Shown: piece by piece, positions 1 to 64,000 of the stretch
Layout of the letters: each line of letters begins with the position of its first letter
Position numbering within the stretch: position 1 is the first letter of the stretch
Assembly (NCBI GenBank): GCA_037893245.1
Contig: JBAIAA010000396.1
Span: 992,001 to 1,056,000, forward strand
Source: Crossaster papposus
Lineage: Eukaryota; Echinodermata; Asteroidea; Velatida; Solasteridae
Direction of reading: 5' to 3'
DNA length: 64,000 nt
Program-made: the position numbers and the translations under genes
Notes under the pieces: model-generated
The model's input: only the letters and a program-made list of their open reading frames with translations
What the model was told of the DNA's origin: nothing
The model's database searches: none

Positions 1-217
1 ATCTGAGCTGCGAACCTCAACGTTGTTCGAGAATGAAGAGACACTCATCAGCTCGACATCTGAGTCAAAATATTGCCAAATTTCTCACTGGAACAAACCT
101 AAACTGAGAGACTCATGCGTCAGGACACTGGCGGCATATGCCTATGTGGCACTACACGTGTACATACAAACACATCAGAAAACATGGCTGCGAATGAGGA
201 TAATGTTCTCGACATAT
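1..217 (+). repeat. Class A monomer (reference unit, 217 bp)
   Basis: This is the commonest class. Landmarks by monomer position: CAACGTTG palindrome at 18-25, an A/T-rich stretch with AAAATATTGCC at about 67-77, the GGAACAAACCTAAAC segment at 90-104, ATGCGTCAGGACACTGGCGG at 115-134, the palindrome GCATATGC at 134-141, the palindrome TACACGTGTA at 153-162, and ACATGGCTGCGAATGAGGAT at 182-201. Minor versions differ in CATCAG or CACCAG near 46-51, in ACTACACG or AATACACG before the palindrome, in ACATACAAAC or ACATGCAAAC after it, in ATGGCTG or ATGCCTG, and in ATAATGTTCTC or ATATTTTTCTC near the end. The start is an arbitrary phase; the window happens to begin exactly there. Confidence 0.95.
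153..162. promoter_or_regulatory. TACACGTGTA palindrome with E-box CACGTG (representative)
   Basis: TACACGTGTA is its own reverse complement over 10 bp and contains CACGTG, the core bound by bHLH proteins of the MYC/MAX/USF type (known for that protein family). It lies at the same place in nearly all full-length monomers of classes A, B and D, giving hundreds of copies spaced 217 bp apart, and it is absent from the short class C. Single-base losses were seen at 28524, 31437, 39722, 53326, 57433 and 59425. Binding is an inference; the palindrome is observed. Confidence 0.55.
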
Positions 218-868
218 ATCTGAGCTGCGAACCTCAACGTTGTTCGATAATGAAGAGACACTAACCAGCTCGACATCTGAGCCAAAATATTCCCAAATTT
301 CTCACTGGAACAAACCTAAACTGAGAGACTCATGCGTCAGGACACTGGCGGCATAGGCCTCTGCGGCAATACACGTGTACACGCATAAACATAAGAAAAC
401 ATGGCTGCGAATGAGGATAATTTTATGAACTTATATCTGAGCTGTGAACCTCAACGTTGTTCGAGAATAAAGAGACACTCACCAGCTCGACATCCGAGCC
501 AAAATATTGCCAAATTTCTCACTGGAACAAACCTAAACTGAGAGACTCATGCGTCAGGACACTGGCGGCATATGCCTATGTGGCACTACACGTGTACATG
601 CAAACACATAAGAAAACATGGCTGCGAATGAGGATATTTTTCTCGACATATATCTGAGCTGCGAGCCTCAACGTTGTTCGAGAATGAAGAGAAACTCACA
701 AGCTCGACATCTGAGCCAAAATATTGCCAAGTTTCTCACTGGAACAAACCTAAACTGAGAGACTCATGCGTCAGGACACTGGCGGCATATGCCTATGTGG
801 CATTACACGTGTACATGCAAACACATCAGAAAACATGGCTGCGAATGAGGATATTTTTCTTGACATAT

Positions 869-1026
869 ATCTGAGCTGCGAGCCTCAACGTTGTTCGAGA
901 ATGAAGAAACACTCACAAGCTCGACATCCGAGCCAAAATATTGCCAAATTTCTCACTGGAAAAAAACACCAAACTGTGAGACTCATGCTTCTGGACACTG
1001 GTGACATGATAATGTTCTCGACATGT
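869..1026 (+). repeat. Class C short monomer (158 bp, 61-bp block missing)
   Basis: Compared with class A this unit jumps from GGACACTGGTGACAT directly to GATAATGTTCTCGAC, so class A positions 138-198 are missing (61 bp). Two extra bases lie in the A-run after CTGG, giving 158 bp. The missing block holds the CACGTG palindrome. Other marks are CACAAGCTCGACATCCGAG and ACTGTGAGACTCATGCTTCTGG. I count 42 short units, starting near 869, 1895, 2704, 3730, 4756, 5130, 6370, 7395, 7769, 9009, 9383, 13227, 13601, 18507, 20188, 29672, 30697, 31719, 33179, 34421, 40873, 42115, 43357, 44816, 46275, 47519, 47893, 48701, 49726, 50751, 51125, 51717, 53610, 53767, 55007, 55818, 57717, 57874, 58682, 59707, 60950 and 62409. 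One shared breakpoint implies a single founding deletion that was then amplified. Confidence 0.94.
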
Positions 1027-1460
1027 ATCTGAGCTGCGAACCTCAACGTTGTTCGAGAATGAAGAGACACTCATCAGCTCGACATCTGAGCCAAAATATT
1101 GCCAACTTTCTCACTGGAACAAACCTAAACTGAGAGACTCATGCGTCAGGACACTGGCGGCATATGTCTATGTGGCACTACACGTGTACATACAAACACA
1201 TCAGAAAACATGGCTGCGAATGATGATATTTTTCTCGACATATATCTGAGCTGCGAGCCTCAACGTTGTTCGAGATTATAGAGACACTCACCAGCTCGAC
1301 ATCTGAGCCAAAATATTGCCAAATTTCTCACTGGAACAAACCTAAACTGAGAGACTCATGCGTCAGGACACTGGCGGCATATGCCTATGTGGCAATACAC
1401 GTGTACATACAAACACATCAGAAAACATGCCTGCGAATGAGGATATTTTTCTCGACAAAT

Positions 1461-1677
1461 ATCTGAGCTGCGAACCTCAACGTTGTTGGAGAATGAAGAG
1501 ACATTCACCACCTCCACATCTGAGCTAACATATCGCCAAAATTCTCACCGGAAGAGAACAAAACTTTGAGACACATGCGTCAGGACACTGGCGGCATAGG
1601 CCTATGCGGCAATACACGTGTACACGCATAAACATACAAAAACATGGCTGCGAATGAGGATAATTGTATGAACTTAT
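1461..1677 (+). repeat. Class B monomer (divergent 217-bp unit)
   Basis: Class B is the most diverged full-length class, with about 30 differences from class A by hand count. Diagnostic parts are GTTGGAGAATGAAGAGACAT, CACCACCTCCACATC, GCTAACATATCGCC, CTCACCGGAAGAG, CATAGGCCTATGCGG, TACACGCATAAACATA and the ending AATTTTATGAACTTA (AATTGTATGAACTTA here). Roughly forty B units or B-front chimeras occur, including starts at 1461, 4322, 5937, 6961, 8576, 11275, 12794, 15493, 17012, 17663, 19537, 21212, 21863, 22948, 23816, 24684, 26203, 27071, 28155, 30046, 32528, 33770, 36318, 37835, 39353, 42923 and 46868. They mark the register of the higher-order repeats. Confidence 0.93.
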
Positions 1678-1894
1678 ATCTGAGCTGCGAACCTCAACGT
1701 TGTTCGAGAATGAAGAGACACTCACCAGCTCGACATCCGAGCCAAAATATTACCAAATTTCTCACTGGAAAAAACCCAAACTGAGAGACTCATGCGTCAG
1801 GATACTGGCGGCATAGGCCTATGTGGCAATACACGTGTACATAAATACACATCAGAAAACATGGCTGCGAATGTGGATATTTTTCTCGACATAT
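1678..1894 (+). repeat. Class D monomer (217 bp)
   Basis: This unit is close to class A but has CACCAGCTCGACATCCGAG, ATATTACCAAATTTC, GGAAAAAACCCAAAC, GGATACTGGCGG and CATAGGCCTATGTGG. The last creates a 12-bp perfect palindrome CATAGGCCTATG where class A has GCATATGC. The TACACGTGTA palindrome is kept. Class D usually follows a class B unit, so a B-D pair is a recurring building block of the larger repeats, for example at 1461-1894, 4322-4755 and 23816-24249. Confidence 0.9.
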
Positions 1895-2861
1895 ATCTGA
1901 GCTGCGAGCCTCAACGTTGTTCGAGAATGAAGAGACACTCACAAGCTCGACATCCGAGCCAAAATATTGCCAAATTTCTCACTGGAAAAAAAACCAAACT
2001 GTGAGACTCATGCTTCTGGACACTGGTGACATGATAATGTTCTCGACATGTATCTGAGCTGCGAACCTCAACGTTGTTCGAGAATGAAGAGACACTCATC
2101 AGCTCGACATCTGAGCCAAAATATTGCCAAATTTCTCACTGGAACAAACCTAAACTGAGAGACTCATGCGTCAGGACACTGGCGGCATATGCCTATGTGG
2201 CAATACACGTGTACATACAAACACATCAGAAAACATGCCTGCGAATGAGGATATTTTTCTCGACATATATCTGAGCTGCGACCCTCAACGTTGTTCGAGA
2301 ATGAGGAGACACTCACCAGCTCGACATCCGAGCCAAAATATTACCAAATTTCTCACTGGAAAAAAACCCAAACTGAGAGACTCATGCGTCAGGATACTGG
2401 CGGCATAGGCCTATGTGGCAATACACGTGTACATACATACACATCAGAAAACATGGCTGCGAATGAGGATAATGTTCTCGACATATATCTGAGCTGCGAA
2501 CCTCAACGTTGTTGGAGAATGAAGAGACACTAACCAGCTCGACATCTGAGCCAAAATATTGCCAAATTTCTCACTGGAACAAACCTAAACTGATAGACTC
2601 ATGCGTCAGGACACTGGCGGCATATGCCTATGTGGCACTACACGTGTACATGCAAACACATCAGAAAACATGGCTGCGAATGAGGATATTTTTCTCGACA
2701 TATATCTGAGCTGCGAGCCTCAACGTTGTTCGAGAATGAAGAGACACTCACAAGCTCGACATCCGAGCCAAAATATTGCCAAATTTCTCACTGGAAAAAA
2801 AAACCAAACTGTGAGACTCATGCTTCTGGACACTGGTGACATGATAATGTTCTCGACATGT

Positions 2862-5159
2862 ATCTGAGCTGCGAACCTCAACGTTGTTCGAGAATGAAGA
2901 GACACTCATCAGCTCGACATCTGAGTCAAAATATTGCCAAATTTCTCACTGGAACAAACCTAAACTGAGAGACTCATGCGTCAGGACACTGGCGGCATAT
3001 GCCTATGTGGCACTACACGTGTACATACAAACACATCAGAAAACATGGCTGCGAATGAGGATAATGTTCTCGACATATATCTGAGCTGCGAACCTCAACG
3101 TTGTTTGATAATGAAGAGACACTAACCAGCTCGACATCTGAGCCAAAATATTGCCAAATTTCTCACTGGAACAAACCTAAACTGAGAGACTCATGCGTCA
3201 GGACACTGGCGGCATATGCCTCTGCGGCAATACACGTGTACACGCATAAACATAAGAAAACATGGCTGCGAATGAGGATAATTTTATGAACTTATATCTG
3301 AGCTGTGAACCTCAACGTTGTTCGAGAATAAAGAGACACTCACCAGCTCGACATCCGAGCCAAAATATTGCCAAATTTCTCACTGGAACAAACCTAAACT
3401 GAGAGACTCATGCGTCAGGACACTGGCGGCATATGCCTATGTGGCACTACACGTGTACATGCAAACACATCAGAAAACATGGCTGCGAATGAGGATATTT
3501 TTCTCGACATATATCTGAGCAGCGAGCCTCAACGTTGTTCGAGAATGAAGAGACACTCACAAGCTCGACATCTGAGCCAAAATATTGCCAAGTTTCTCAC
3601 TGGAACAAACCTAAACTGAGAGACTCATGCGTCAGGACACTGGCGGCATATGCCTATGTGGCACTACACGTGTACATGCAAACACATCAGAAAACATGGC
3701 TGCGAATGAGGATATTTTTCTTGACATATATCTGAGCTTCGAGCCTCAACGTTGTTCGAGAATGAAGAAACACTCACAAGCTCGACATCCGAGCCAAAAT
3801 ATTGCCAAATTTCTCACTGGAAAAAAACACCAAACTGTGAGACTCATGCTTCTGGACACTGGTGACATGATAATGTTCTCGACATGTATCTGAGCTGCGA
3901 ACCTCAACGTTGTTCGAGAATGAAGAGACACCCATCAGCTCGACATCTGAGCCAAAATATTGCCAACTTTCTCACTGGAACAAACCTAAACTGAGAGACT
4001 CATGCGTCAGGACACTGGCGGCATATGCCTATGTGGCACTACACGTGTACATACAAACACATCAGAAAACATGGCTGCGAATGATGATATTTTTCTCGAC
4101 ATATATCTGAGCTGCGAGCCTCAACGTTGTTCGAGATTATAGAGACACTCACCAGCTCGACATCTGAGCCAAAATATTGCCAAATTTCTCACTGGAACAA
4201 ACCTAAACTGAGAGACTCATGCGTCAGGACACTGGCGGCATATGCCTATGTGGCAATACACGTGTACATACAAACACATCAGAAAACATGCCTGCGAATG
4301 AGGATATTTTTCTCGACAAATATCTGAGCTGCGAACCTCAACGTTGTTGGAGAATGAAGAGACATTCACCACCTCCACATCTGAGCTAACATATCGCCAA
4401 AATTCTCACCGGAAGAGAACAAAACTTTGAGACACATGCGTCAGGACACTGGCGGCATAGGCCTATGCGGCAATACACGTGTACACGCATAAACATAACA
4501 AAACATGGCTGCGAATGAGGATAATTGTATGAACTTATATCTGAGCTGCGAACCTCAACGTTGTTCGAGAATGAAGAGACACTCACCAGCTCGACATCCG
4601 AGCCAAAATATTACCAAATTTCTCACTGGAAAAAACCCAAACTGAGAGACTCATGCGTCAGGATACTGGCGGCATAGGCCTATGTGGCAATACACGTGTA
4701 CATACATACACATCAGAAAACATGGCTGCGAATGTGGATATTTTTCTCGACATATATCTGAGCTGCGAGCCTCAACGTTGTTCGAGAATGAAGAGACACT
4801 CACAAGCTCGACATCCGAGCCAAAATATTGCCAAATTTCTCACTGAAAAAAAAACCAAACTGTGAGACTCATGCTTCTGGACACTGGTGACATGATAATG
4901 TTCTCGACATGTATCTGAGCTGCGAACCTCAACGTTGTTCGAGAATAAAGAGACACTCATCAGCTCGACATCTGAGCCAAAATATTGCCAAATTTCTCAC
5001 TGGAACAAACCTAAACTGAGAGACTCATGCGTCAGGACACTGGCGGCATATGCCTATGTGGCAATACACGTGTACATACAAACACATCAGAAAACATGCC
5101 TGCGAATGAGGATATTTTTATCAAAATATATCTGAGCTGTGACCCTCAACGTTGTTCGA
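2862..5159 (+). repeat. HOR of 2861 bp, copy 2 (incomplete)
   Basis: This repeats copy 1 with scattered substitutions. Examples are CACTCATC to CACCCATC near 3930 and ATATGTCTATG to ATATGCCTATG near 4024. The match stops near 5110-5160, where the expected D-A pair is missing and a C' short unit at 5130 follows instead. The right part of this copy is shared with the 2639-bp repeat that starts at 3888, so the later duplication used this copy as its template. Confidence 0.82.
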
Positions 5160-6526
5160 GAATGAAGAGACACTCACAAGCTCGACATCCCAGCCAAATA
5201 TTGCCAAATTTCTCACTGGAAAAAAAAACAAACTGTGAGACTCATGCTTCTGGACACTGGTGACTTGATAATGTTCTCGACATGTATCTGAGCTGCGAAC
5301 CTCAAAGTTGTTCGAGAATGAAGAGACACTCATCAGCTCGACATCTGAGTCAAAATATTGCCAAATTTCTCACTGGAACAAACCTAAACTGAGAGACTCA
5401 TGCGTCAGGACACTGGCGGCATATGCCTATGTGGCACTACACGTGTACATACAAACACATCAGAAAACATGGCTGCGAATGAGGATAATGTTCTCGACAT
5501 ATATCTGAGCTGCGAACCTCAACGTTGTTCGAGAATGAAGAGACACTAACCAGCTCGACATCTGAGCCAAAATATTGCCAAATTTCTCACTGGAACAAAC
5601 CTAAACTGAGAGACTCATGCGTCAGGACACTGGCGGCATATGCCTATGTGGCACTACACGTGTACATACAAACACATCAGAAAACATGGCTGCGAATGAT
5701 GATATTTTTCTCGACATATATCTGAGCTGCGAGCCTCAACGTTGTTCGAGATTATAGAGACACTCACCAGCTCGACATCTGAGCCAAAATATTGCCAAAT
5801 TTCTCACTGGAACAAACCTAAACTGAGAGACTCATGCGTCAGGACACTGGCGGCATATGCCTATGTGGCAATACACGTGTACATACAAACACATCAGAAA
5901 ACATGCCTGCGAATGAGGATATTTTTCTCGACAAATATCTGAGCTGCGAACCTCAACGTTGTTGGAGAATGAAGAGACATTCACCACCTCCACATCTGAG
6001 CTAACATATCGCCAAAATTCTCACCGGAAGAGAACAAAACTTTGAGACACATGCGTCAGGACACTGGCGGCATTGGCCTATGCGGCAATACACGTGTACA
6101 CGCATAAACATAAAACAACATGGCTGCGAATGAGGATAATTGTATGAACTTATATCTGAGCTGCGAACCTCAACGTTGTTCGAGAATGAAGAGACACTCA
6201 CCAGCTCGACATCCGAGCCAAAATATTACCAAATTTCTCACTGGAAAAAACCCAAACTGAGAGACTCATGCGTCAGGATACTGGCGGCATAGGCCTATGT
6301 GGCAATACACGTGTACATACATACACATCAGAAAACATGGCTCGAATGTGGATATTTTTCTCGACATATATCTGAGCTGCGAGCCTCAACGTTGTTCGAG
6401 AATGAAGAGACACTCACAAGCTCGACATCCGAGCCAAAATATTGCCAAATTTCTCACTGGAAAAAAAACCAAACTGTGAGACTCATGCTTCTGGACACTG
6501 GTGACATGATAATGTTCTCGACATGT
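3888..6526 (+). repeat. HOR of 2639 bp, copy 1
   Basis: Ten long and three short units (short ones at 4756, 5130 and 6370) recur exactly 2639 bp further on. Matching landmarks include the GAGATTATAG units (4105 and 6744; 5720 and 8359), the AACATAACAAAACATGG variant (near 4492 and 7131) and the C'-A pair (5130 and 7769). It has private changes, such as TTTTTATCAAAATATATC near 5115 and GTGACTTGATAATG near 5261. Confidence 0.87.
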
Positions 6527-9165
6527 ATCTGAGCTGCGAACCTCAACGTTGTTCGAGAATGAAGAGACACTCATCAGCTCGACATCTGAGCCAAAATATT
6601 GCCAACTTTCTCACTGGAACAAACCTAAACTGAGAGACTCATGCGTCAGGACACTGGCGGCATATGCCTATGTGGCACTACACGTGTACATACAAACACA
6701 TCAGAAAACATGGCTGCGAATGATGATATTTTTCTCGACATATATCTGAGCTGCGAGCCTCAACGTTGTTCGAGATTATAGAGACACTCACCAGCTCGAC
6801 ATCTGAGCCAAAATATTGCCAAATTTCTCACTGGAACAAACCTAAACTGAGAGACTCATGCGTCAGGACACTGGCGGCATATGCCTATGTGGCAATACAC
6901 GTGTACATACAAACACATCAGAAAACATGCCTGCGAATGAGGATATTTTTCTCGACAAATATCTGAGCTGCGAACCTCAACGTTGTTGGAGAATGAAGAG
7001 ACATTCACCACCTCCACATCTGAGCTAACATATCGCCAAAATTCTCACCGGAAGAGAACAAAACTTTGAGACACATGCGTCAGGACACTGGCGGCATAGG
7101 CCTATGCGGCAATACACGTGTACACGCATAAACATAACAAAACATGGCTGCGAATGAGGATAATTGTATGAACTTATATCTGAGCTGCGAACCTCAACGT
7201 TGTTCGAGAATGAAGAGACACTCACCAGCTCGACATCCGAGCCAAAATATTACCAAATTTCTCACTGGAAAAAACCCAAACTGAGAGACTCATGCGTCAG
7301 GATACTGGCGGCATAGGCCTATGTGGCAATACACGTGTACATACATACACATCAGAAAACATGGCTGCGAATGTGGATATTTTTCTCGACATATATCTGA
7401 GCTGCGAGCCTCAACGTTGTTCGAGAATGAAGAGACACTCACAAGCTCGACATCCGAGCCAAAATATTGCCAAATTTCTCACTGAAAAAAAACCCAAACT
7501 GTGAGACTCATGCTTCTGGACACTGGTGACATGATAATGTTCTCGACATGTATCTGAGCTGCGAACCTCAACGTTGTTCGAGAATAAAGAGACACTCATC
7601 AGCTCGACATCTGAGCCAAAATATTGCCAAATTTCTCACTGGAACAAACCTAAACTGAGAGACTCATGCGTCAGGACACTGGCGGCATATGCCTATGTGG
7701 CAATACACGTGTACATACAAACACATCAGAAAACATGCCTGCGAATGAGGATATTTTTCTCGACATATATCTGAGCTGCGACCCTCAACGTTGTTCGAGA
7801 ATGAAGAGACACTCACAAGCTCGACATCCCAGCCAAATATTGCCAAATTTCTCACTGGAAAAAAAAACAAACTGTGAGACTCATGCTTCTGGACACTGGT
7901 GACATGATAATGTTCTCGACATGTATCTGAGCTGCGAACCTCAAAGTTGTTCGAGAATGAAGAGACACTCATCAGCTCGACATCTGAGTCAAAATATTGC
8001 CAAATTTCTCACTGGAACAAACCTAAACTGAGAGACTCATGCGTCAGGACACTGGCGGCATATGCCTATGTGGCACTACACGTGTACATACAAACACATC
8101 AGAAAACATGGCTGCGAATGAGGATAATGTTCTCGACATATATCTGAGCTGCGAACCTCAACGTTGTTCGAGAATGAAGAGACACTAACCAGCTCGACAT
8201 CTGAGCCAAAATATTGCCAAATTTCTCACTGGAACAAACCTAAACTGAGAGACTCATGCGTCAGGACACTGGCGGCATATGCCTATGTGGCACTACACGT
8301 GTACATACAAACACATCAGAAAACATGGCTGCGAATGATGATATTTTTCTCGACATATATCTGAGCTGCGAGCCTCAACGTTGTTCGAGATTATAGAGAC
8401 ACTCACCAGCTCGACATCTGAGCCAAAATATTGCCAAATTTCTCACTGGAACAAACCTAAACTGAGAGACTCATGCGTCAGGACACTGGCGGCATATGCC
8501 TATGTGGCAATACACGTGTACATACAAACACATCAGAAAACATGCCTGCGAATGAGGATATTTTTCTCGACAAATATCTGAGCTGCGAACCTCAACGTTG
8601 TTGGAGAATGAAGAGACATTCACCACCTCCACATCTGAGCTAACATATCGCCAAAATTCTCACCGGAAGAGAACAAAACTTTGAGACACATGCATCAGGA
8701 CACTGGCGGCATTGGCCTATGCGGCAATACACGTGTACACGCATAAACATAAAAAAACATGGCTGCGAATGAGGATAATTGTATGAACTTATATCTGAGC
8801 TGCGAACCTCAACGTTGTTCGAGAATGAAGAGACACTCACCAGCTCGACATCCGAGCCAAAATATTACCAAATTTCTCACTGGAAAAAACCCAAACTGAG
8901 AGACTCATGCGTCAGGATACTGGCGGCATAGGCCTATGTGGCAATACACGTGTACATACATACACATCAGAAAACATGGCTCGAATGTGGATATTTTTCT
9001 CGACATATATCTGAGCTGCGAGCCTCAACGTTGTTCGAGAATGAAGAGACACTCACAAGCTCGACATCCGAGCCAAAATATTGCCAAATTTCTCACTGGA
9101 AAAAAAACCAAACTGTGAGACTCATGCTTCTGGACACTGGTGACATGATAATGTTCTCGACATGT
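6527..9165 (+). repeat. HOR of 2639 bp, copy 2
   Basis: This copy matches 3888-6526 with only a few differences seen by eye. The D unit with the 2-base loss TGGCTCGAATG (near 6340) recurs near 8979. The last part, from 8576, is also the beginning of the 4218-bp repeat, so the two HORs overlap and share a junction. Confidence 0.87.
7769..7924 (+). repeat. Class C' short monomer (156 bp)
   Basis: This subtype of the short class reads GCGACCCTCAACG at the start, CATCCCAGCCAAATATTGCC in place of CATCCGAGCCAAAATATTGCC (one A lost), and is 156 bp. It is followed by a class A unit with CTCAAAGTTGTTCGAG and CTGAGTCAAAATATTG. The same C'-A pair recurs at 5130, 9383, 13601, 18507 and 20188, so the pair has been copied as a block. 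Confidence 0.85.
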
Positions 9166-12100
9166 ATCTGAGCTGCGAACCTCAACGTTGTTCGAGAATG
9201 AAGAGACACTCATCAGCTCGACATCTGAGCCAAAATATTGCCAAATTTCTCACTGGAACAAACCTAAACTGAGAGACTCATGCGTCAGGACACTGGCGGC
9301 ATATGCCTATGTGGCAATACACGTGTACATACAAACACATCAGAAAACATGCCTGCGAATGAGGATATTTTTCTCGACATATATCTGAGCTGCGACCCTC
9401 AACGTTGTTCGAGAATGAAGAGACACTCACAAGCTCGACATCCCAGCCAAATATTGCCAAATTTCTCACTGGAAAAAAACCCAAACTGTGAGACTCATGC
9501 TTCTGGACACTGGTGACATGATAATGTTCTCGACATGTATCTGAGCTGCGAACCTCAAAGTTGTTCGAGAATGAAGAGACACTCATCAGCTCGACATCTG
9601 AGTCAAAATATTGCCAAATTTCTCACTGGAACAAACCTAAACTGAGAGACTCATGCGTCAGGACACTGGCGGCATATGCCTATGTGGCACTACACGTGTA
9701 CATACAAACACATCAGAAAACATGGCTGCGAATGAGGATAATGTTCTCGACATATATCTGAGCTGCGAACCTCAACGTTGTTCGAGAATGAAGAGACACT
9801 AACCAGCTCGACATCTGAGCCAAAATATTGCCAAATTTCTCACTGGAACAAACCTAAACTGAGAGACTCATGCGTCAGGACACTGGCGGCATAGGCCTAT
9901 GCGGCAATACACGTGTACACGCATAAACATAAGAAAACATGGCTGCAAATGAGGATAATTTTATGAACTTATATCTGAGCTGCGAACCTCAACGTTGTTC
10001 GAGAATGAAGATACACTCACCAGCTCGACATCCGAGCCAAAATATTGCCAAATTTCTCACTGGAACAAACCTAAACTGAGAGACTCATGCGTCAGGACAC
10101 TGGCGGCATATGCCTATGTGGCACTACACGTGTACATGCAAACACATCAGAAAACATGGCTGCGAATGAGGATATCTTTCTCGACATGTATCTGAGCTGC
10201 GAACCTCAACGTTGTTCGAGAATGAAGAGACACTCATCAGCTCGACATCTGAGCCAAAATATTGCCAAATTTCTCACTGGAACAAACCTAAACTGAGAGA
10301 CTCATGCGTCAGGACACTGGCGGCATATGCCTATGTGGCACTACACGTGTACATACATACACATCAGAAAACATGGCTGCGAATGAGGATAATGTTCTCG
10401 ACATATATCTGAGCTGCGAACCTCAACGTTGTTCGAGAATGAGGAGACACTCACCAGCTCGACATCTGAGCCAAATTATTGCCAAATTTTTCACTGGAAC
10501 AAACCTAAACTGAGAGACCCATGCGTCAGGACACTGGCGGCATATGCCTATGTGGCACTACACGTGTACATACAAACACATCAGAAAACATGGCTGCGAA
10601 TGAGGATAATGTTCTCGACATATATCTGAGCTGCGAACCTCAACGTTGTTCGAGAATGAAGAGACACTAACCAGCTCGACATCTGAGCCAAAATATTGCC
10701 AAATTTCTCACTGGAACAAACCTAAACTGAGAGACTCATGCGTCAGGACACTGGCGGCATAGGCCTATGCGGCAATACACGTGTACACGCATAAACATAA
10801 GAAAACATGGCTGCGAAAGAGGATAATTTTATGAACTTATATCTGAGCTGCGAACCTCAACGTTGTTCGAGAATGAAGAGACACTCACCAGCTCGACATC
10901 CGAGCCAAAATATTGCCAAATTTCTCACTGGAACAAACCTAAACTGAGAGACTCATGCGTCAGGACACTGGCGGCATATGCCTATGTGGCACTACACGTG
11001 TACATGCAAACACATCAGAAAACATGGCTGCGAATGAGGATATCTTTCTCGACATGTATCTGAGCTGCGAACCTCAACGTTGTTCGAGAATGAAGAGACA
11101 CTCATCAGCTCGACATCTGAGCCAAAATATTGCCAAATTTCTCACTGGAACAAACCTAAACTGATAGACTCATGCGTCAGGACACTGGCGGCATATGCCT
11201 ATGTGGCACTACACGTGTACATACAAACACATCAGAAAACATGCCTGCGAATGAGGATATTTTTCTCGACATATATCTGAGCTGCGAACCTCAACGTTGT
11301 TGGAGAATGAAGAGACATTCACCACCTCCACATCTGAGCTAACATATCGCCACAATTCTCACCGGAAGAGACCAAAACTTTGAGACACATGCGTCAGGAC
11401 ACTGGCGGCATAGGCCTATGCGGCAATACACGTGTACACGCATAAACATAAGAAAATATGGCTGCGAATGAGGATAATTTTATGAACTTATATCTGAGCT
11501 GCAAACCTCAGCGTTGTTCGAGAATGAAGAGACACTCACCAGCTCGACATCCGAGCCAAAATATTACCAAATTTCTCACTGGAAAAAAACCAAACTGAGA
11601 GACTCATGCGTCAGGATACTGGCGGCATAGGCCTATGTGGCAATACACGTGTACATACATACACATCAGAAAACATGGCTGCGAATGAGGATAATGTTCT
11701 CGACATATATCTGAGCTGCGAACCTCAACGTTGTTCGAGAATGAAGAGACACTCACCAGCTCGACATTTGAGCCAAAATATTGCCAAATTTCTCACTGCA
11801 ACAAACCTAAACTGAGAGACTCATGCGTCAGGACACTGGCGGCATATGCCTATGTGGCACTACACGTGTACATACAAACACATCAGAAAACATGGCTGCG
11901 AATGAGGATATTTTTGTCGACATATATCTGAGCTGTGAGCCTCAACGTTGTTCGAGAATGAAGAGACACTCACCAGCTCGACATCCGAGCCAAAATATTG
12001 CCAAATTTCTCACTGAAAAAAACCCAAACTGAGAGACTCATGCTTCAGGATACTGGCGGCATAGGCCTATGTGGCAATACACGTGTACATACATACGCAT

Positions 12101-12793
12101 CAGAAAACATGCCTGCGAATGAGGATAATGTTCTCGACATATATCTGAGCTGCGAACCTCAACGTTGTTCGAGAATGAAGAGACACTCACCAGCTCGACA
12201 TCTGAGCCAAAATATTGCCAAATTTCTCACTGGAACAAACCTAAACTGAGAGACTCATGCGTCAGGACACTGGCGGCATATGCCTATGTGGCAATACACG
12301 TGTACATACAAACACATCAGAAAACATGCCTGCGAATGAGGATATTTTTGTCGACATATATCTGAGCTGCGAGCCTCAACGTTGTTCGAGAATGAAGAGA
12401 CACTCACCAGCTCGACATCCGAGCCAAAATATTGCCAAATTTCTCACTGGAAAAAACCCAAACTGAGAGACTCATGCGTCAGGATTCTGGCGGCATAGGC
12501 CTATGTGGCAATACACGTGTACATACATACGCATCAGAAAACATGCCTGCGAATGAGGATAATGTTCTCGACATATATCTGAGCTGCGAACCTCAACGTT
12601 GTTCGAGAATGAAGAGACACTCACCAGCTCGACATCTGAGCCAAAATATTGCCAAATTTCTCACTGGAACAAACCTAAACTGAGAGACTCATGCGTCAGG
12701 ACACTGGCGGCATATGCCTATGTGGCAATACACGTGTACATACAAACACATCAGAAAACATGCCTGCGAATGAGGATATTTTTCTCGACATAT
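8576..12793 (+). repeat. HOR of 4218 bp, copy 1
   Basis: The unit starts at a class B monomer with ACATGCATCAGGACAC and TAAAAAAACATGG, and carries two short units (9009 and 9383) among about eighteen long ones. Everything up to 12793 recurs 4218 bp downstream. Before 8576 the paired positions stop matching: the upstream unit has GAGATTATAG, its counterpart GAGAATGAAG. Private change: GCGAAAGAGGATAATTTT near 10813. Confidence 0.92.
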
Positions 12794-17830: not shown

Positions 17831-17851
17831 CACAAGTGGGTAAATGCCGTC

Positions 17852-18004: not shown

Positions 18005-18018
18005 TCAATCAAAAACAA

Positions 18019-50750: not shown

Positions 50751-50907
50751 ATCTGAGCTGCGAACCTCAACGTTGTTCGAGAATGAAGAGACACTCACCA
50801 GCTCGACATCTAAGCCACAATATTGCCAAATTTCTCACTGGAAAAAAAACCAAACTGTGAGACTCATGCTTCTGGACACTGGTGACATGATAATGTTCTC
50901 GACATGT
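49883..50907 (+). repeat. 1025-bp HOR, copy 2 (nested)
   Basis: Very close to copy 1. I noted CTCAACATATATC for CTCGACATATATC near 50091, AAAATGTCTCACTGG near 50611 and GAATGAAGAGAC near 50563. The last 157 bp also form the left edge of the 3232-bp copy 2. Confidence 0.9.
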
Positions 50908-52867: not shown

Positions 52868-53609
52868 GGCGGCATAGGCCTATGTGGCAATACACGTGTA
52901 CATACATACACATAAGTAAACATGGCTGCGAATGAGGATAATGTTCTCGACATATATCTGAGCTGCGAACCTCAACGTTGTTCGAGAATGAACAAAAATT
53001 CACCACCTCCACATCTGAGCTAACACATCGCCAACATTCTCACCGGAAGAGACCAAAACTTTGAGACTCATGCGTCAGGACACTGGCGGCATAGGCCTAT
53101 GCGGCAATACACGTGTACACGCATCAACATAAGAAAAAAAAAGGCTGCGAATCAGGATAATTTTATCAACTTATATCTGAGCTGCGAACCTCAACGTTGT
53201 TCGAGAATAAAGAGACACTCACCAGTTCGACATCCGAGCCCAAATATTGCCAGATTTCTCACTGGAAAAACAAACAAACTGAGAGGCTCATGCGTCAGTA
53301 TACTGGCGGCATAGGCCTATGTGGCAATAAACGTGTACATACATACACATCAGAAAACATGGCTGCGAATGAGGATAATGTTCTCCACATATATCTGAGC
53401 TGCGAACCTCAACGTTGTTCGATAAGGAAGAGACATTCACCACCTCCACATCTGAGCTAACACATCGCCAAAATTCTCACCGGAAGAGACCAACACTTTG
53501 AGACTCATGCGTCAGGACACTGCCGGCATAGGCCTATGAGGCAATACACGTGTACATACATACACATAAGAAAACATGGCTGCGAATGAGGATATTTTTC
53601 TCGACATAT

Positions 53610-53923
53610 ATTTGAGCTGCGAGCCTCAACGTTGATCGAGAATGAAGAGACACTCACAAGCTCGACATCCGAGCCAAAATATTGCCAAATTTCTCACTGG
53701 AAAAACAAACAAACTGTGAGACTCAAGCTTCTGGACACTGGTGACATGATAATGTTCTCGACATGTATCTGAGCTGCGAACCTCAATGTTGTTCGAGAAT
53801 GAAGAGACACTCACAAGCCTGACATCCGAGCCAAAATATTGCCAAATTTTTCACTGGAAAAAAAACCAAACTGTGAGACTCAAGCTTCTGGACACTGGTG
53901 ACATGATAATGTTCTCGACATGT
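53610..53923 (+). repeat. Two adjacent class C short monomers
   Basis: Short units at 53610-53766 and 53767-53923 follow each other with no long unit between. Both are of the AAGCTT subtype. The first reads GTTGATCGAG with GGAAAAACAAACAAACTGTG, the second CACAAGCCTGACATCC. The pair is duplicated at 57717-58030. Elsewhere in the window short units are separated by at least one long unit. Confidence 0.86.
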
Positions 53924-55006
53924 ATCTGAGCTGCGAACCTCAACGTTGTTCGAGAATGAAGAGACACTCATCAGCTCGACATCTGAGCCAAAATATTGCC
54001 AAATTTCTCACTGGAACAAACCTAAACTGAGAGACTCATGCGTCAGGACACTGGCGGCATATGCCTATGTGGCACTACACGTGTACATACAAACACATCA
54101 GAAAACATGGCTGCGAATGAGGATATTTTTCTCGACATATATCTGAGCTGCGAGCCTCAACGTTGTTCGAGATTATAGAGACACTCACCAGCTCGACATC
54201 CGAGCCAAAATATTGCCAAATTTCTCACTGGAAAAAACCCAAACTGAGAGACTCATGCGTCAGGATACTGGCGGCATAGGCCTATGGGGCAATACACGTG
54301 TACATACATACACATCAGAAAACATGGCTGCGAATGAGGATAATGTTCTCGACATATATCTGAGCTGCGAACCTCAACGTTGTTCGAGAATGAGAAGACG
54401 CTCACCAGCTCGACATCTGAGCCAAAATATTGCCAAATTTCTCACTGGAACAAACCTAAACTGAGAGACTCATGCGTCAGGATACTGGCGGCATAGGCCT
54501 ATGTGGCACTTCACGTGTACATGCAAACACATCAGAAAACATGGCTGCGAATGATGATATTTTTCTCGACATATATCTGAGCTGCGAACCTCAACGTTGT
54601 TGGAGAATGAAAAGACATTCACCACCTCCACATCTGAGCTAACATATCGCCAAAATTCTCACCGGAAGACACCAAAACTTTAAGACACATGCGTCAGGAC
54701 ACTGGCGGCATAGGCCTATGCGGCAATACACGTGTACACGCATAAACATAAGAAAACATGGCTGCGAATGAGGATAATTTTATGAACTTATATCTGAGCT
54801 GCGAACCTCAACGTTGTTCGAGAATGAAGAGACACTCACCAGCTCGACATCCGAGCCAAAATATTACCAAATTTCTCACTGAAAAAAACCCAAGCTGAGA
54901 GACTCATGCGTCAGGATACTGACGGCATAGGCCTATGTGGCAATACACGTGTACATACATACACATCAGAAAACATGGCTGAGAATGAGGATAATGTTCT
55001 CGACAT

Positions 55007-55164
55007 ATATCTGAGCTGCGAACCTCAACGTTGTTCGAGAATGAAGAGACACTCAACAGCTCGACATCTGAGCCAAAATATTGCCAAATTTCTCACTGGA
55101 ACAAACCTAAACTGTGAGACTCATGCTTCTGGACACTGGTGACATGATAATGTTCTCGACATGT
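55007..55164 (+). repeat. Short monomer with a class A front (chimera)
   Basis: The front half reads CAACAGCTCGACATCTGAG and GGAACAAACCTAAACTG as in class A, then switches to TGAGACTCATGCTTCTGG and the class C deletion junction. At 158 bp it shows that the deletion can be passed to another front half by exchange. Confidence 0.8.
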
Positions 55165-56974
55165 ATCTGAGCTGCGAACCTCAATGTTGGTCGAGAATAA
55201 AGAGACACTCATCAGCTCGACATCTGAGCCAAAATATTGCCAAATTTCTCACTGGAACAAACCTAAACTGAGAGACTCATGCGTCAGGACACTGGCGGCA
55301 TATGCCTATGTGGCACTACACGTGTACATACAAACACATCAGAAAACATGGCTGCGAATGAGGATATTTTTCTCGACATATATCTGAGCTGCGAGCCTCA
55401 ACGTTGTTCGAGATTATAGAGACACTCACCAGCTCGACATCCGAGCCAAAATATTGCCAACATTCTCACTGGAACAAACCGAAAACTGAGAGACTCATGC
55501 GTCAGGACACTGGCGGCATATGCCTATGTGGCAATACACGTGTACATACAAACACATCAGAAAACATGCCTGCGAATGAGGATATTTGTTTCGACATATA
55601 TCTGAGCTGCGAACCTCAACGTTGTTGGAGAATGAAGAGACATTCACCACCTCCACATCCGAGCCAAAATATTACCAAATTTCTCACTGGAAAAAAACCC
55701 AAACTGAGAGACTCATGCGTCAGGATACTGGCGGCATAGGCCTATGTGGCAATACACGTGTACATACATACACATCAGAAAACATGGCTGCGAATGAGGA
55801 TAATGTTCTCGACATATATCTGAGCTGCGAACCTCAACGTTGTTCGAGAATGAAGAGACACTCACCAGCTCGACATCTGAGCCAAAATATTGCCAAATTT
55901 TTCACTGGAAAAAAAACCAAACTGTGAGACTCATGCTTCTGGACACTGGTGACATGATAATGTTCTCGACATGTATCTGAGCTGCGAACCTCAACGTTGT
56001 TGGGAGAATGAAGAGACATTCACCACCTCCACATCTGAGCTAACATATCGCCAATATTCTCACCGGAAGATACCAAAACTTTAAGACACATGCGTCAGGA
56101 CACTGGCGGCATAGGCCTATGCGGCAATACACGTGTACACGCATAAACATAAGAAAACATGGCTGCGAATGAGGATAATTTTATGAACTTATATCTGAGC
56201 TGCGAACATCAACGTTGTTCGAGAATGAAGAGACACTCACCAGCTCGACATCCGAGCCAAAATATTGCCAAATTTCTCACTGGAACAAACCTAAACTGAG
56301 AGACTCATGCGTCAGGACACTGGCGGCATATGCCTATGTGGCACTACACGTGTACAAGCCAACACATCAGAAAACATGGCTGCGAATGAGGATATTTTTC
56401 TATACATATATCTGAGCTACGAGCCTCAACGTTGTTCGAGAATGAAGAAACACTCACCAGCTCGACATCCGAGCCAAAATATTGCCAGATTTCTCACTGG
56501 AAAAACAAACAAACTGAGAGGCTCATGCGTCAGTATACTGGCGGCATAGGCCTATGTGGCAATACACGTGTACATACATACACATCAGAAAACATGGCTG
56601 CAAATGAGGATAATGTTCTCGACATATATCTGAGCTGCGAACCTCAACGTTGTTCGAGAATGAAAATACATTCACCACCTCCACATCTGAGCTAACACAT
56701 CGCCAACATTCTCACCGGAAGAGACCAACACTTTGAGACTCATGCGTCAGGACACTGGCGGCATAGGCCTATGCGGCAATACACGTGTACACGCATCAAC
56801 ATAAGAAAACATGGCTGCGAATGAGGATAATTTTATGAACTTATATCTGAGCTGCGAACCTCAACGTTGTTCGAGAATGAAGAGACACTCACCAGCTCGA
56901 CATCCGAGCCAAAATATTGCCAGATTTCTCACTGGAAAAACAAACAAACTGAGAGGCTCATGCGTCAGTATACT

Positions 56975-58694
56975 GGCGGCATAGGCCTATGTGGCAATAC
57001 ACGTGTACATACATACACATAAGTAAACATGGCTGCGAATGAGGATAATGTTCTCGACATATATCTGAGCTGCGAACCTCAACGTTGTTCGAGAATGAAC
57101 AAAAATTCACCACCTCCACATCTGAGCTAACACATCGCCAACATTCTCACCGGAAGAGACCAAAACTTTGAGACTCATGCGTCAGGACACTGGCGGCATA
57201 GGCCTATGCGGCAATACACGTGTACACGCATCAACATAAGAAAAAAAAAGGCTGCGAATCAGGATAATTTTATCAACTTATATCTGAGCTGCGAACCTCA
57301 ACGTTGTTCGAGAATAAAGAGACACTCACCAGTTCGACATCCGAGCCCAAATATTGCCAGATTTCTCACTGGAAAAACAAACAAACTGAGAGGCTCATGC
57401 GTCAGTATACTGGCGGCATAGGCCTATGTGGCAATAAACGTGTACATACATACACATCAGAAAACATGGCTGCGAATGAGGATAATGTTCTCCACATATA
57501 TCTGAGCTGCGAACCTCAACGTTGTTCGATAAGGAAGAGACATTCACCACCTCCACATCTGAGCTAACACATCGCCAAAATTCTCACCGGAAGAGACCAA
57601 CACTTTGAGACTCATGCGTCAGGACACTGCCGGCATAGGCCTATGAGGCAATACACGTGTACATACATACACATAAGAAAACATGGCTGCGAATGAGGAT
57701 ATTTTTCTCGACATATATTTGAGCTGCGAGCCTCAACGTTGATCGAGAATGAAGAGACACTCACAAGCTCGACATCCGAGCCAAAATATTGCCAAATTTC
57801 TCACTGGAAAAACAAACAAACTGTGAGACTCAAGCTTCTGGACACTGGTGACATGATAATGTTCTCGACATGTATCTGAGCTGCGAACCTCAATGTTGTT
57901 CGAGAATGAAGAGACACTCACAAGCCTGACATCCGAGCCAAAATATTGCCAAATTTTTCACTGGAAAAAAAACCAAACTGTGAGACTCAAGCTTCTGGAC
58001 ACTGGTGACATGATAATGTTCTCGACATGTATCTGAGCTGCGAACCTCAACGTTGTTCGAGAATGAAGAGACACTCATCAGCTCGACATCTGAGCCAAAA
58101 TATTGCCAAATTTCTCACTGGAACAAACCTAAACTGAGAGACTCATGCGTCAGGACACTGGCGGCATATGCCTATGTGGCACTACACGTGTACATACAAA
58201 CACATCAGAAAACATGGCTGCGAATGAGGATATTTTTCTCGACATATATCTGAGCTGCGAGCCTCAACGTTGTTCGAGATTATAGAGACACTCACCAGCT
58301 CGACATCCGAGCCAAAATATTGCAAAATTTCTCACTGGAAAAAACCCAAACTGAGAGACTCATGCGTCAGGATACTGGCGGCATAGGCCTATGGGGCAAT
58401 ACACGTGTACATACATACACATCAGAAAACATGGCTGCGAATGAGGATAATGTTCTCGACATATATCTGAGCTGCGAACCTCAACGTTGTTCGAGAATGA
58501 GAAGACGCTCACCAGCTCGACATCTGAGCCAAAATATTGCCAAATTTCTCACTGGAACAAACCTAAACTGAGAGACTCATGCGTCAGGATACTGGCGGCA
58601 TAGGCCTATGTGGCACTTCACGTGTACATGCAAACACATCAGAAAACATGGCTGCGAATGATGATATTTTTCTCGACATATATCTGAGCTGCGA
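56975..58694 (+). repeat. HOR of 4107 bp, copy 2 (incomplete)
   Basis: Matches 52868-54587 almost base for base, including the odd AAGAAAAAAAAAGGCTGCG tract and the double short units at 57717 and 57874. One difference seen is ATTGCAAAATTTC near 58319 for ATTGCCAAATTTC. It departs at about 58695, where class B follows in copy 1 and a short unit follows here. Confidence 0.9.
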
Positions 58695-61540
58695 GCCTCA
58701 ACGTTGATCGAGAATGAAGAGACACTCACAAGCTCGACATCTGAGCCAAAATATTGCCAAATTTCTCACTGGAAAAAAAACCAAACTGTGAGACTCAAGC
58801 TTCTGGACACTGGTGACATGATAATGTTCTCGACATGTATTTGAGCTGCGAACCTCAATGTTGTTCGAGAATGAAGAGACACTCATCAGCTCGACATCTG
58901 AGCCAAAATATTGCCAAATTTCTCACTGGAACAAACCTAAACTGAGAGACTCATGCGTCAGGATACTGGCGGCATAGGCCTAAGTGGCAATACACGTGTA
59001 CATACATACGCATCAGAAAACATGGCTGCGAATGAGGATAATGTTCTCGACATATATCTGAGCTGCGAACCTCAACGTTGTTCGAGAATGAAGAGACACT
59101 CACCAGCTCGACATCTGAGCCAAAATATTGCCAAATTTCTCACTGGAACAAACCTAAACTGAGAGACTCATGCGTCAGGACACTGGCGGCATATGCCTAT
59201 GTGGCACTACACGTGTACATGCAAACACATCAGAAAACATGGCTGCGAATGAGGATATTTTTCTCGACATATATCTGAGCTGCGAGCCTCAACGTTGTTC
59301 GAGAATGAAGAGACATTCACCACCTCCACATCTGAGCTAACATATCGCCAAAATTCTCACCGGAAGATACCAAAACTTTGAGACACATGCGTCAGGACAC
59401 TGGCGGCATAGGCGTATGCGGCAATACACATGTACACGCATAAACATAAGAAAACATGGCTGCGAATGAGGATAATTTTATGAACTTATATCTGAGCTGC
59501 GAACCTCAACGTTGTTCGAGAATGAAGAGACACTCACCAGCTCGACATCCGAGCCAAAATATTACCAAATTTCTCACTGGAAAAAAACCAACCTGAGAGA
59601 CTCATGCGTCAGGATACTGGCGGCATAGGCCTATGTGGCAATACACGTGTACATGCAAACACATCAGAAAACATGGCTGCGAATGAGGATATTTGTCTCG
59701 ACATATATCTGAGCTGCGAGCCTCAACGTTGTTCGAGAATGAAGAGACACTCACAAGCTCGACATCCGAGCCAAAATTATTGCCAAATTTCTCACTGGAA
59801 AAAAAACCAAACTGTGAGACTCATGCTTCTGGACACTGGTGACATGATAATGTTCTCGACATTTATCTGAGCTGCGAACCTCAACGTTGTTCGAGATTAT
59901 AGAGACACTCACCAGCTCGACATCCGAGCCAAAATATTGCCAAATTTCTCACTGGAAAAAAAACAAACTGAGAGACTCATGCGTCAGGATACTGGCGGCA
60001 TAGGCCTATGTGGCAATACACGTGTACATACATACACATCAGAAAACATGGCTGCGAATGAGGATAATGTTCTCGACATATATCTGAGCTGCGAACCTCA
60101 ACGTTGTTCGAGAATGAGGAGACACTCACCAGCTCGATATCTGAGCCAAAATATTGCCAAATTTCTCACTGGAACAAACCTAAACTGAGAGACTCATGCG
60201 TCAGGACACTGGCGGCATATGCCTATGTGGCAATACACGTGTACATACATACACATCAGACAACATGGCTGCGAATGAGGATAATGTTCTCGACATATAT
60301 CTGAGCAGCGAACCTCAACGTTGTTGGAGAATGAAGAGACATTCCCCACCTCCACATCTGAGCTAACATATCGCCAAAATTCTCACCGGAAGAGACCAAA
60401 ACTTTGAGCCACATGCGTCAGGACACTGGCGGCATAGGCCTATGCGGCAATACACGTGTACACGCATAAACATAAGAAAACATGGCTGCGAATAAGGATA
60501 ATTTTATGAACTTATATCTGAGCTGTGAACCTCAACGTTGTTCGAGAATGAAGAGACACTCACCAGCTCGACATCCGAGCCAAAATATTACCAAATTTCT
60601 CACTGGAAAAAAACCAAACTGAGAGACTCATGCGTCAGGATACTGACGGCATAGGCCTATGTGGCAATACACGTGTACAAACATACACATCAGAAAACAT
60701 GGCTGAGAATGAGGATAATGTTCTCGACATATATCTGAGCTGCGAACCTCAACGTTGTTTGAGAATGAAGAGACACTCACCAGCTCGACATTTGAGCCAA
60801 AATATTGCAAAATTTCTCACTGGAACAAACCTAAACTGAGAGACTCATGCGTCAGGACACTGGCGGCATATGCCTATGTGGCACTACACGTGTACATGCA
60901 AACACATCAGAAAACATGGCTGCGAATGAGGATATTTGTTTCGACATATATCTGAGCTGCGAGCCTCAACGTTGTTCGAGAATGAAGAGACACTCACAAG
61001 CTCGACATCCGAGCCAAAATATTGCCAAATTTCTCACTGGAAAAAAAACCAAACTGTGAGACTCATGCTTCTGGACACTGGTGACATGATAATGTTCTCG
61101 ACATGTATCTGAGCTGCGAACCTCAACGTTGTTCGAGAATGAAGAGACACTCACCAGCTCGACATCCGAGCCAAAATATTGCCCAATTTCTCACTGGAAA
61201 AAACCCAAACTGAGAGACTCATGCGTCAGGATACTGGCGGCATAGGCCTAAGTGGCAATACACGTGTACATACATACGCATCAGAAAACATGGCTGCGAA
61301 TGAGGATAATGTTCTCGACATATATCAGAGCTGCGAACCTCAACGTTGTTCGAGAATGAAGAGACACTCACCAGCTCGACATCCGAGCCAAAATATTGCC
61401 CAATTTCTCACTGGAAAAAACCCAAACTGAGAGACTCATGCGTCAGGATACTGGCGGCATAGGCCTAAGTGGCAATACACGTGTACATACATACGCATCA
61501 GAAAACATGGCTGCGAATGAGGATAATGTTCTCGACATAT
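58695..61540 (+). repeat. Mixed monomers with CCTAAGTGG variants
   Basis: Short units at 58682, 59707 and 60950, and B units near 59274 (chimera front) and 60301. The rare CCTAAGTGGCAATAC variant stands near 58979, 61250 and 61464 and again at 63143. The block around 58930-59650 is repeated 2485 bp downstream. The palindrome at 59425 is altered to TACACATGTA, and CAAAATTATTGCC near 59773 has one extra T. Confidence 0.74.
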
Positions 61541-63216
61541 ATCTGAGCTGCGAACCTCAACGTTGTTCGAGAATGAAGAGACACTCACCAGCTCGACATC
61601 TGAGCCAAAATATTGCCAAATTTCTCACTGGAACAAACCTAAGCTGAGAGACTCATGCGTCAGGACACTGGCGGCATATGCCTATGTGGCACTACACGTG
61701 TACATGCAAACACATCAGAAAACATGGCTGCGAATGAGGATATTTTTCTCGACACATATCCGAGCTGCGAGCCTCAACGTTGTTCGAGAATGAAGAGACA
61801 TTCACCACCTCCACATCTGAGCTAACATATCGCCAAAATTCTCACCGGAAGAGACCAAAACTTTGAGACACATGCGTCAGGACACTGGCGGCATAGGCCT
61901 ATGCGGCAATACACGTGTACACGCATAAACATAAGAAAACATGGCTGCGAATGAGGATAATTTTATGAACTTATATCTGAGCTGCGAACCTCAACGTTGT
62001 TCGAGAATGAAGAGACACTCACCAGCTCGACATCTGAGCCAAAATATTACCAAATTTCTCACTGAAAAAAAACCAAACTGAGAGACTCATGCGTCAGGAT
62101 ACTGGCGGCATAGGCCTATGTGGCAATACACGTGTACATACATACACATCAGAAAACATGGCTGCGAATGAGAATAATGTTCTCGACATATATCTGAGCT
62201 GCGAACCTCAACGTTGTTCGAGAATGAAGAGACACTCACCAGCTCGACATTTGAGCCAAAATATTGCCAAATTTCTCACTGGAACAAACCTAAACTGAGA
62301 GACTCATGCGTCAGGACACTGGCGGCATATGCCTATGTGGCACTACACGTGTACATGCAAACACATCAGAAAACATGGCTGCGAATGAGGATATTTGTCT
62401 CGACATATATCTGAGCTGCGAGCCTCAACGTTGTTCGAGAATGAAGAGACACTCACAAGCTCGACATCCGAGCCAAAATATTGCCAAATTTCTCACTGGA
62501 AAAAAAACCAAACTGTGAGACTCATGCTTCTTGACACTGGTGACATGATAATGTTCTCGACATGTATCTGAGCTGCGAACCTCAACGTTGTTCGAGATTA
62601 TAGAGACACTCACCAGCTCGACATCCGAGCCAAAATATTGCCAAATTTCTCACTGGAAAAAAACCAAACTGAGAGACTCATGCGTCAGGATACTGGCGGC
62701 ATAGGCCTATGTGGCAATACACGTGTACATACATACACATCACAAAACATGGCTGCGAATGAGGATAATGTTCTCGACATATATCTGAGCTGCGAACCTC
62801 AACGTTGTTCGAGAATGAAGAGACACTCACCAGCTCGACATTTGGGCAAAAATATTGTCAAATTTCTCAATGGAACAAACCTAAACTGAGAGACTCATGC
62901 GTCAGGACACTGGCGGCATATGCCTATGTGGCACTACACGTGTACATACAAACACATCAGAAAACATGGCTGCGAATGAGGATATTTTTCTCGACATATA
63001 TCTGAGCTGCGAGCCTCAACGTTGTTCGAGAATGAAGAGACACTCACCAGCTCGACATCCGAGCCAAAATATTGCCAAATTTCTCACTGGAAAAAACCCA
63101 AACTGAGAGACTCATGCGTCAGGATACTGGCGGCATAGGCCTAAGTGGCAATACACGTGTACATACATACGCATCAGAAAACATGGCTGCGAATGAGGAT
63201 AATGTTCTCGACATAT
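61541..63216 (+). repeat. HOR of 1676 bp, copy 1
   Basis: Seven long units and one short one (62409), and 7 x 217 + 157 = 1676. Marks are the CCTAAGTGG unit just before it, GACACATATC, GCGAATGAGAATAATG, and CGACATTTGAGCC. The similarity also extends some 100 bases to the left. Confidence 0.83.
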
Positions 63217-64000
63217 ATCTGAGCTGCGAACCTCAACGTTGTTCGAGAATGAAGAGACACTCACCAGCTCGACATCTGAGCCAAAATATTGCCAAATTTC
63301 TCACTGGAACAAACCTAAACTGAGAGACTCATGCGTCAGGACACTGGCGGCATATGCCTATGTGGCACTACACGTGTACATGCAAACACATCAGAAAACA
63401 TGGCTGCGAATGAGGATATTTTTCTCGACACATATCTGAGCTGCGAGCCTCAACGTTGTTCGAGAATGAAGAGACATTCACCACCTCCACATCTGAGCTA
63501 ACATATCGCCAAAATTCTCACCGGAAGAGACCAAAACTTTGAGACACATGCGTCAGGACACTGGCGGCATAGGCCTATGCGGCAATACACGTGTACACGC
63601 ATAAACATAAGAAAACATGGCTGCGAATGAGGATAATTTTATGAACTTATATCTGAGCTGCGAACCTCAACGTTGTTCGAGAATGAAGAGACACTCACCA
63701 GCTCGACATCTGAGCCAAAATATTACCAAATTTCTCACTGGAAAAAAACCAAACTGAGAGACTCATGCGTCAGGATACTGGCGGCATAGGCCTATGTGGC
63801 AATACACGTGTACATACATACACATCAGAAAACATGGCTGCGAATGAGAATAATGTTCTCGACATATATCTGAGCTGCGAACCTCAACGTTGTTCGAGAA
63901 TGAAGAGACACTCACCAGCTCGACATTTGAGCCAAAATATTGTCAAATTTCTCAATGGAACAAACCTAAACTGAGAGACTCATGCGTCAGGACACTGGCG
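63217..64000 (+). repeat. HOR of 1676 bp, copy 2, cut by the window end
   Basis: Repeats 61541 onward, including GACACATATC near 63427 and GCGAATGAGAATAATG near 63840. Near the end it takes on TATTGTCAAATTTCTCAATGG, which in the preceding copy occurs two to three units further along (near 62855). The array continues past the window. Confidence 0.82.

Follow-up and report, generated by a model that had tools for sequence, protein, structure and literature searches.

A layered patchwork of local higher-order repeats in a sea star satellite on a histone-bearing contig

The CEN178 satellite of Arabidopsis is organized into many short, local higher-order blocks, which are mostly present in few copies and include no dominant unit. 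Satellite 1 of the newt Notophthalmus has a monomer of about 222 bp and is situated between histone clusters. Titles related to the newt satellite are cited in an excerpt of a further paper (PMC5615363). In excerpted text on the orangutan, alpha satellite is described as forming "patchwork-quilt" arrays composed of several independent higher-order repeat (HOR) expansions (PMC12428378). Haplotypes of the histone cluster of Drosophila melanogaster vary in the copy number and order of their units, which is read, in the available part of that paper, as suggesting unequal sister chromatid exchange; the same part states that the histone locus borders pericentromeric heterochromatin (PMC12400953). 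Among the titles and abstract openings of the literature on sea star and echinoderm satellites, none describes the satellite analyzed here.

The window, the 64,000 bp of contig C396 between positions 992001 and 1056000, is a single head-to-tail satellite with all monomers in one orientation. It belongs to an assembly of 1,023,315,904 bases in 1841 contigs. The window has 304 complete monomers. Excluded from this set are the truncated ends of the window and an interval of 410 bp, a C monomer interrupted by 193 bp of foreign sequence. The long monomers (215-223 bp) number 262, of which 236 are exactly 217 bp in length, and the short monomers (156-159 bp) number 42. The long monomers can be divided into subfamilies A (130), B (78), C (33, divergent), D (8) and E (8), with five others. 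The short monomer is without a fixed 61-bp segment that is present in the long ones, and it bears private substitutions. The missing segment contains a ACACGTGT palindrome. Subfamily B is the nearest to the short monomer, with 9 differences in 155 sites. In the 161 kb around the window (C396:945001-1106000), 60 of 71 C monomers have an A monomer before them and 53 of 71 have a B monomer after them, so that an older A-C-B order is still visible.

The 193-bp insertion (Table 1) is the only interruption of the window revealed by the anchor spacing. It may be flanked by a 5-bp target duplication, and its 40-base core is single-copy in the sequence examined. At a threshold of 120 aa, two open frames, each of 141 aa, lie within the satellite of the window. 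No tRNAs were found in the window, and no structured RNA in it reached the Rfam gathering scores. A scan with the CENP-B box consensus gave zero matches with fewer than two mismatches, and nine with two mismatches as against a shuffle mean of 80. A centromeric or pericentromeric location of the array is a guess.

The block structure was examined with an edit-distance matrix of the 304 monomers, a monomer matrix being among the checks that the earlier note on this DNA had proposed. A run was defined as at least four monomers lying off the diagonal at an identity of at least 98%. There are 58 such runs in the window, the longest having 22 monomers, whereas 200 shuffles of the monomer order, in which long and short monomers were dealt separately, gave 0.45 runs on average and never more than 3, none of them longer than 6 monomers. 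The multi-monomer copies are thus far closer to each other than random monomers are, as is characteristic of HORs. The earlier note had described the array as a patchwork of many HOR periods, and 13 of its 15 periods were recovered at this level (Table 1). For the remaining two, 651 and 434 bp, the run limit was lowered to two monomers, since the four-monomer limit misses two-copy cases of such short periods. The 651-bp period was then found where the order of periods in the earlier note implies, as a run of three monomers. The 434-bp period was rejected as a high-identity unit, there being no such run at the place implied for it by that order; the offset occurs elsewhere as weak three-monomer runs (98.5-98.6%) inside both copies of the 4218-bp unit (positions 11709 and 15927). 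Nearly every period had been described as n x 217 plus m x 156-158 bp. Twelve offsets lie no more than 5 bp from a value of n x 217 + m x 157, which is expected because the monomers come in just these two lengths.

Tandem-like runs were defined by an identity of at least 98.8%, a length of at least four monomers and a run length of at least 0.4 of the offset. Fourteen of these have their first copy wholly in the window and comprise 1.41 to 2.75 copies, in agreement with the proposal that most units exist as two copies. The pair of 2861-bp units, which starts upstream of the window, and the 4107- and 3232-bp offsets, which are below the 0.4 limit, are outside the fourteen. Tandem-like blocks cover 60% of the window. 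The arrangement typical of human alpha satellite, one unit repeated over long stretches, is absent from the window at 1.41-2.75 copies; the top copy number is 3.20 in C396:945-1106k and 2.92 in C9:660-740k. The patchwork had been presented as a feature of the window, but it extends beyond it, with longer or higher-copy units beside it. A 5998-bp unit is present in 2.87 copies upstream and a 1085-bp unit in 3.20 copies downstream. In total, 38 tandem-like runs with 29 offsets were found in C396:945001-1106000, and 12 runs with 11 offsets in C9:660001-740000.

Table 1. Repeat units, offsets and the insertion in the window, in window coordinates
Feature	Position	Strand	Copies	Identity	Remarks
2861-bp unit	1-5129	+	2.0	99.21%	first copy begins about 590 bp before the window
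2639-bp unit	3730-9382	+	2.14	99.47%	3888-6526 unpartnered in C9
4218-bp unit	8359-17228	+	2.10	99.61%	
193-bp non-satellite insertion	17831-18023	.			inside a C-type monomer
1681-bp unit	18073-20777	+	1.61	99.90%	
3255-bp unit	22297-27721	+	1.67	99.40%	overlaps the 868-bp unit
868-bp unit	within 22297-27721	+	2.75	99.14%	23382-24249 unpartnered in C9
2482/2484-bp offset	30263-33768	+		98.24%	
1518-bp unit	36101-39569	+	2.29	99.54%	
2484-bp unit	40656-44164	+	1.41	99.02%	
651-bp unit	44973-46274	+	2	99.08% over 3 monomers	run 44973-45623
3232-bp offset	47302-51715	+		99.32%	
1025-bp unit	48858-50907	+	2.0	99.61%	lies within the 3232-offset stretch
4107-bp offset	52956-58681	+		99.94%	1 difference in 1619 bp
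1676-bp unit	61324-64000	+	1.65	99.1-99.3%	second copy overruns the window end by about 84 bp

The patchwork is best explained, with a probability of about 0.8, by repeated in-register unequal homologous exchange, the events being of mixed ages. Monomers that are misaligned but in register would undergo homologous exchange again and again, the partners probably being sister chromatids or parts of one chromatid. Each event would gain or delete a whole number of monomers, amounting to about 0.2 to 15 kb. With no block in the stretches seen amplified enough to dominate, units of about two copies would pile up and overlap. We infer that homologous recombination is the agent and that exchange is between sisters rather than homologues. 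Homologous exchange is favored because blocks have been gained and lost, the monomer lengths are in register, close monomer pairs become rarer with distance and A/C chimeras of both polarities are present.

All 304 complete monomers of the window are either 156-159 or 215-223 bp long. The persistence of just two length classes shows that the exchanges keep the register. Close monomer pairs make up 4.8% of pairs at a distance of 1-5 monomers, 6-7% at 6-25 and about 2% beyond 50, and their frequency at 6-25 monomers is roughly threefold that beyond 100. In the 161 kb, all 16 D monomers switch from an A-like to a C-like sequence between sites 113 and 147. Five of the ten E monomers switch the opposite way within the same sites, two of them carrying an A-like base further left, and the other five switch nearer the monomer start. 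Chimeric copies inside duplicated blocks do not count as independent events. The A and B monomers (496, compared at 9 sites) comprise 250 with a pure pattern and 246 that are mixed or have a third base. The commonest mixed pattern, found in 58 monomers, differs at one site and may be a mutation; mosaic A/B monomers with two switches were also found.

Whole-monomer tandem blocks of many sizes would likewise be expected from rolling-circle or break-induced replication, in which multi-monomer circles are excised and reinserted beside their source. This alternative, the strongest of those considered, is nevertheless improbable. It should yield several identical copies per event, whereas the units of the window have 1.41 to 2.75, and the in-register chimeric monomers, with their two polarities, speak for crossing over or conversion.

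Contig C9 holds another version of the array, which is a large one, satellite matches on C9 extending from 616 kb to 3.30 Mb. The two versions are collinear, 192 of 351 C9 monomers pairing in order with C396 in 28 blocks that are 99.26% identical overall. Beyond 669 kb in C9 the semi-global score is 605.5, whereas none of 30 shuffles exceeded 3.0 and the reversed order gave 2.0. The segment C9:660001-664360 matches C396:947541-951897 at 98.2%, and most of it consists of non-satellite sequence, an interruption of about 3.5 kb that is 99.5% identical between the contigs over 3.3 kb; the 1.9 kb following the segment match at 99.84%. A second interruption, of 3059 bp in C9 and 2051 bp in C396, is common to both at its edges only. 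In sample L015 these two interruptions, near the array edge, are at 3594-7170 and 8692-10000, and the first has two open frames inside. The paired monomers lie beyond the second interruption.

Pairing of the two versions was done monomer by monomer, so that the gaps are whole monomers by construction and only the monomer lengths bear on the register. Between the paired blocks there are extra monomers in one version or the other. The 2639- and 868-bp blocks have one additional copy in C396, with identities to the neighboring copy of 99.66% and 99.77%, respectively. Three gap blocks of C396 are part of the 5998-bp unit and are 99.94-100% identical at a shift of 29 monomers. For the C396 gap blocks of 1085, 431, 1026, 1676 and 2052 bp, the best partners reach only 94.8-97.9% identity, and these blocks are better taken as losses in C9 or as events of greater age. 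The remaining C396 gap blocks are complex. Pairing is poor at 35-41 kb of the window, opposite about 27 kb in C9, and this region was given no weight. C9 has duplications of its own, with an offset of 15,021 bp at 99.84% and units of 1832 and 2326 bp. The two contigs thus differ by gains and losses of blocks, which accords with the earlier proposal of many local unequal exchanges with no unit dominating the array.

These gains and losses also bear on gene conversion between distant monomers, according to which the blocks would be conversion tracts and not duplications. The two-switch A/B mosaics can be explained in this way, as can near-identical runs that lie far apart, at offsets of 35,278 to 40,486 bp. 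However, pure conversion does not produce the differences in block content between C9 and C396, and the longest runs are adjacent tandem units, making conversion a still less probable explanation than excised circles.

The possibility has also to be considered that mis-joined or doubled contigs have yielded false block repeats. The sequence is highly repetitive, many unit copies are less than 1% apart, and any block present in a single contig could have arisen by misassembly. However, the 2861-bp unit recurs in the separately assembled C9 (offset 2859 bp, 2.92 copies), as do the block order and much of the order of short and long monomers. Furthermore, every one of the 58 runs shows at least one difference between its copies, unlike a plainly doubled contig. 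An artifact of this kind is therefore slightly less probable even than conversion.

C9 and C396 may represent two related loci, or else alleles that stayed separate in the assembly through a failure of purging in repeats. They are collinear and share the 3.3-kb stretch, no unique flank was found, and the control gene family is haploid-like. A Pfam search for this family, RNA polymerase subunit 2, gave a single nuclear-type locus on each of C423, C456 and C551, the pattern of a haploid assembly, and one further locus on C8. The argument for exchange holds for alleles and paralogues alike, because it requires only that both versions descend from one array.

The relative ages of the units were estimated by comparing the edits between the C396 copies with the edits from each copy to C9. 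Fourteen units were tried, of which 13 have a C9 counterpart. The copies are clearly nearer each other than C9 in the 4218-bp unit (12 edits between copies as against 31 and 33 to C9, in 1953 bp), the 1681-bp unit (1 as against 11 and 10, in 807 bp) and the 5998-bp unit (13 as against 36 and 32, in 5781 bp). The same order is found in the 2484-bp unit by a slight margin (10 edits as against 14 and 16), in the 4107-bp unit, where the call comes from one monomer, and in the 1518-bp unit, which sits in a poorly paired stretch. In the 2861-, 2639-, 3255-, 868-, 1025-, 3232- and 1614-bp units, one copy is no further from C9 than from its twin; for example, there are 14 edits between the 2639-bp copies as against 11 and 10 to C9, and 11 between the 868-bp copies as against 2 and 11. 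Two of these seven calls are reversed when the edits are counted against one unbroken stretch of C9, namely 2639 (12 as against 30 and 25) and 3255 (13 as against 46 and 51). The exchanges had been called recent in the earlier note, which calls for some qualification, as 6 of the 13 units have copies nearer to one another than to C9 and the other 7 do not. The patchwork is layered, with units of mixed ages, and is not the product of a single burst. Copies that are nearer each other than C9 tend to favor exchange within one chromosome lineage.

Samples taken from C396 at 1-10000 and 500001-510000 contain tandem core histone genes on one strand, in frames that we take, by eye, to be H4, H3, H2B and H2A. 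A U2 snRNA gene lies inside the histone repeat, and two H4 genes are spaced 6243 bp apart. No H1 was recognized among the frames of at least 95 aa in C396:1-10000. Relatives among the 40 candidates scored, of 1698 in total, are situated on C396, C9 and five other contigs. In the sample C396:900001-910000, histone stem-loops extend to 901,365 and parsed monomers begin near 901,780.

An exact tag of the short monomer occurs 697 times genome-wide, compared with 25,635 for a general tag. The short and general tags number 40 and 77, respectively, in the window, 111 and 194 in C396:945001-1106000, and 33 and 71 in C9:660001-740000. In three other samples of C396 the short tag is absent, as against 5, 4 and 2 copies of the general tag. 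The short monomer is thus about twenty-fold enriched here, a rough figure, as exact tags also depend on divergence. In the 161 kb of C396 read, the first short monomer is at 955,961. Among the first 100 short-tag matches on C9, which reach 1,238,123, four successive spacings are 808-809 bp and three are 2328 bp, suggesting further local units; among the same matches, the stretches 755,891-914,396 and 1,067,310-1,238,123 are without short tags. A 199-bp interval between monomer anchors is seen once in C396:900001-910000 and three times in C396:1200001-1210000, and its recurrence suggests that a further length variant exists where short monomers are lacking.

With a low probability, the short-monomer patchwork might be a distinct border domain of unusually frequent exchange between the histone/U2 array and a more uniform core, to which the spread of short monomers, from a single origin and by block duplication, was mainly confined. 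Such a border could record exchange events around histone arrays. It is very improbable that the blocks represent a selected functional unit, with a binding site present or absent in alternate monomers and short monomers placed by selection, since the short monomers are irregularly spaced and no CENP-B box was found, even though the segment bearing the ACACGTGT palindrome is missing from them and they are strongly enriched here.

Other parts of the assembly were characterized in passing. Perfect TTAGGG runs are located well inside contigs (C7:289371, C7:2138048 and C11:365444), and a TTAGGG 48-mer has 39,023 overlapping exact matches in the assembly as against 36 for a control. C1841 (16,330 bp) is the mitochondrial genome. 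Its cytochrome oxidase match has 13 TGA codons, and under translation table 9 (AAA = asparagine) COX1 is a full-length frame of 517 aa. The minus-strand frames before COX1, recognized by eye, are presumably ND1 and ND2; the code is presumably of the echinoderm type and the gene order of the sea star type, and the animal is most likely a sea star. The region C8:2872001-5210009, on a contig of 5.3 Mb, has oxidase frames together with an RNA polymerase beta frame that runs without interruption for 1364 aa, and C8 is probably a bacterial chromosome within the assembly.

The satellite is new, but its behavior is of a known kind. The contrast with known satellites drawn in the earlier note was overstated, as local HOR patchworks have already been described in the orangutan and are also a feature of Arabidopsis CEN178. 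The comparison with CEN178 is one of organization and not of sequence: the plant monomer is unrelated, whereas the present satellite has monomers of two lengths and shares its contig with a histone/U2 array. The newt satellite resembles the present one in having a monomer near 220 bp close to histone genes, a likeness of size and setting. In the orangutan, as here, independent HOR expansions lie side by side; there, according to the excerpt, three to four blocks have 80-90% identity, whereas here more than a dozen offsets are found in 64 kb (PMC12428378). In Drosophila the repeat is the histone unit itself, as given in the available part of the paper, whereas here it is a satellite on a histone contig (PMC12400953). 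Two assembled versions of one array allow the births and losses of blocks to be dated against each other, which gives an unusually clear view of satellite change. The presence of the satellite on a contig with histone and U2 genes may be relevant to the location of histone arrays near heterochromatin, and recalls the arrangements in Drosophila and in newts.
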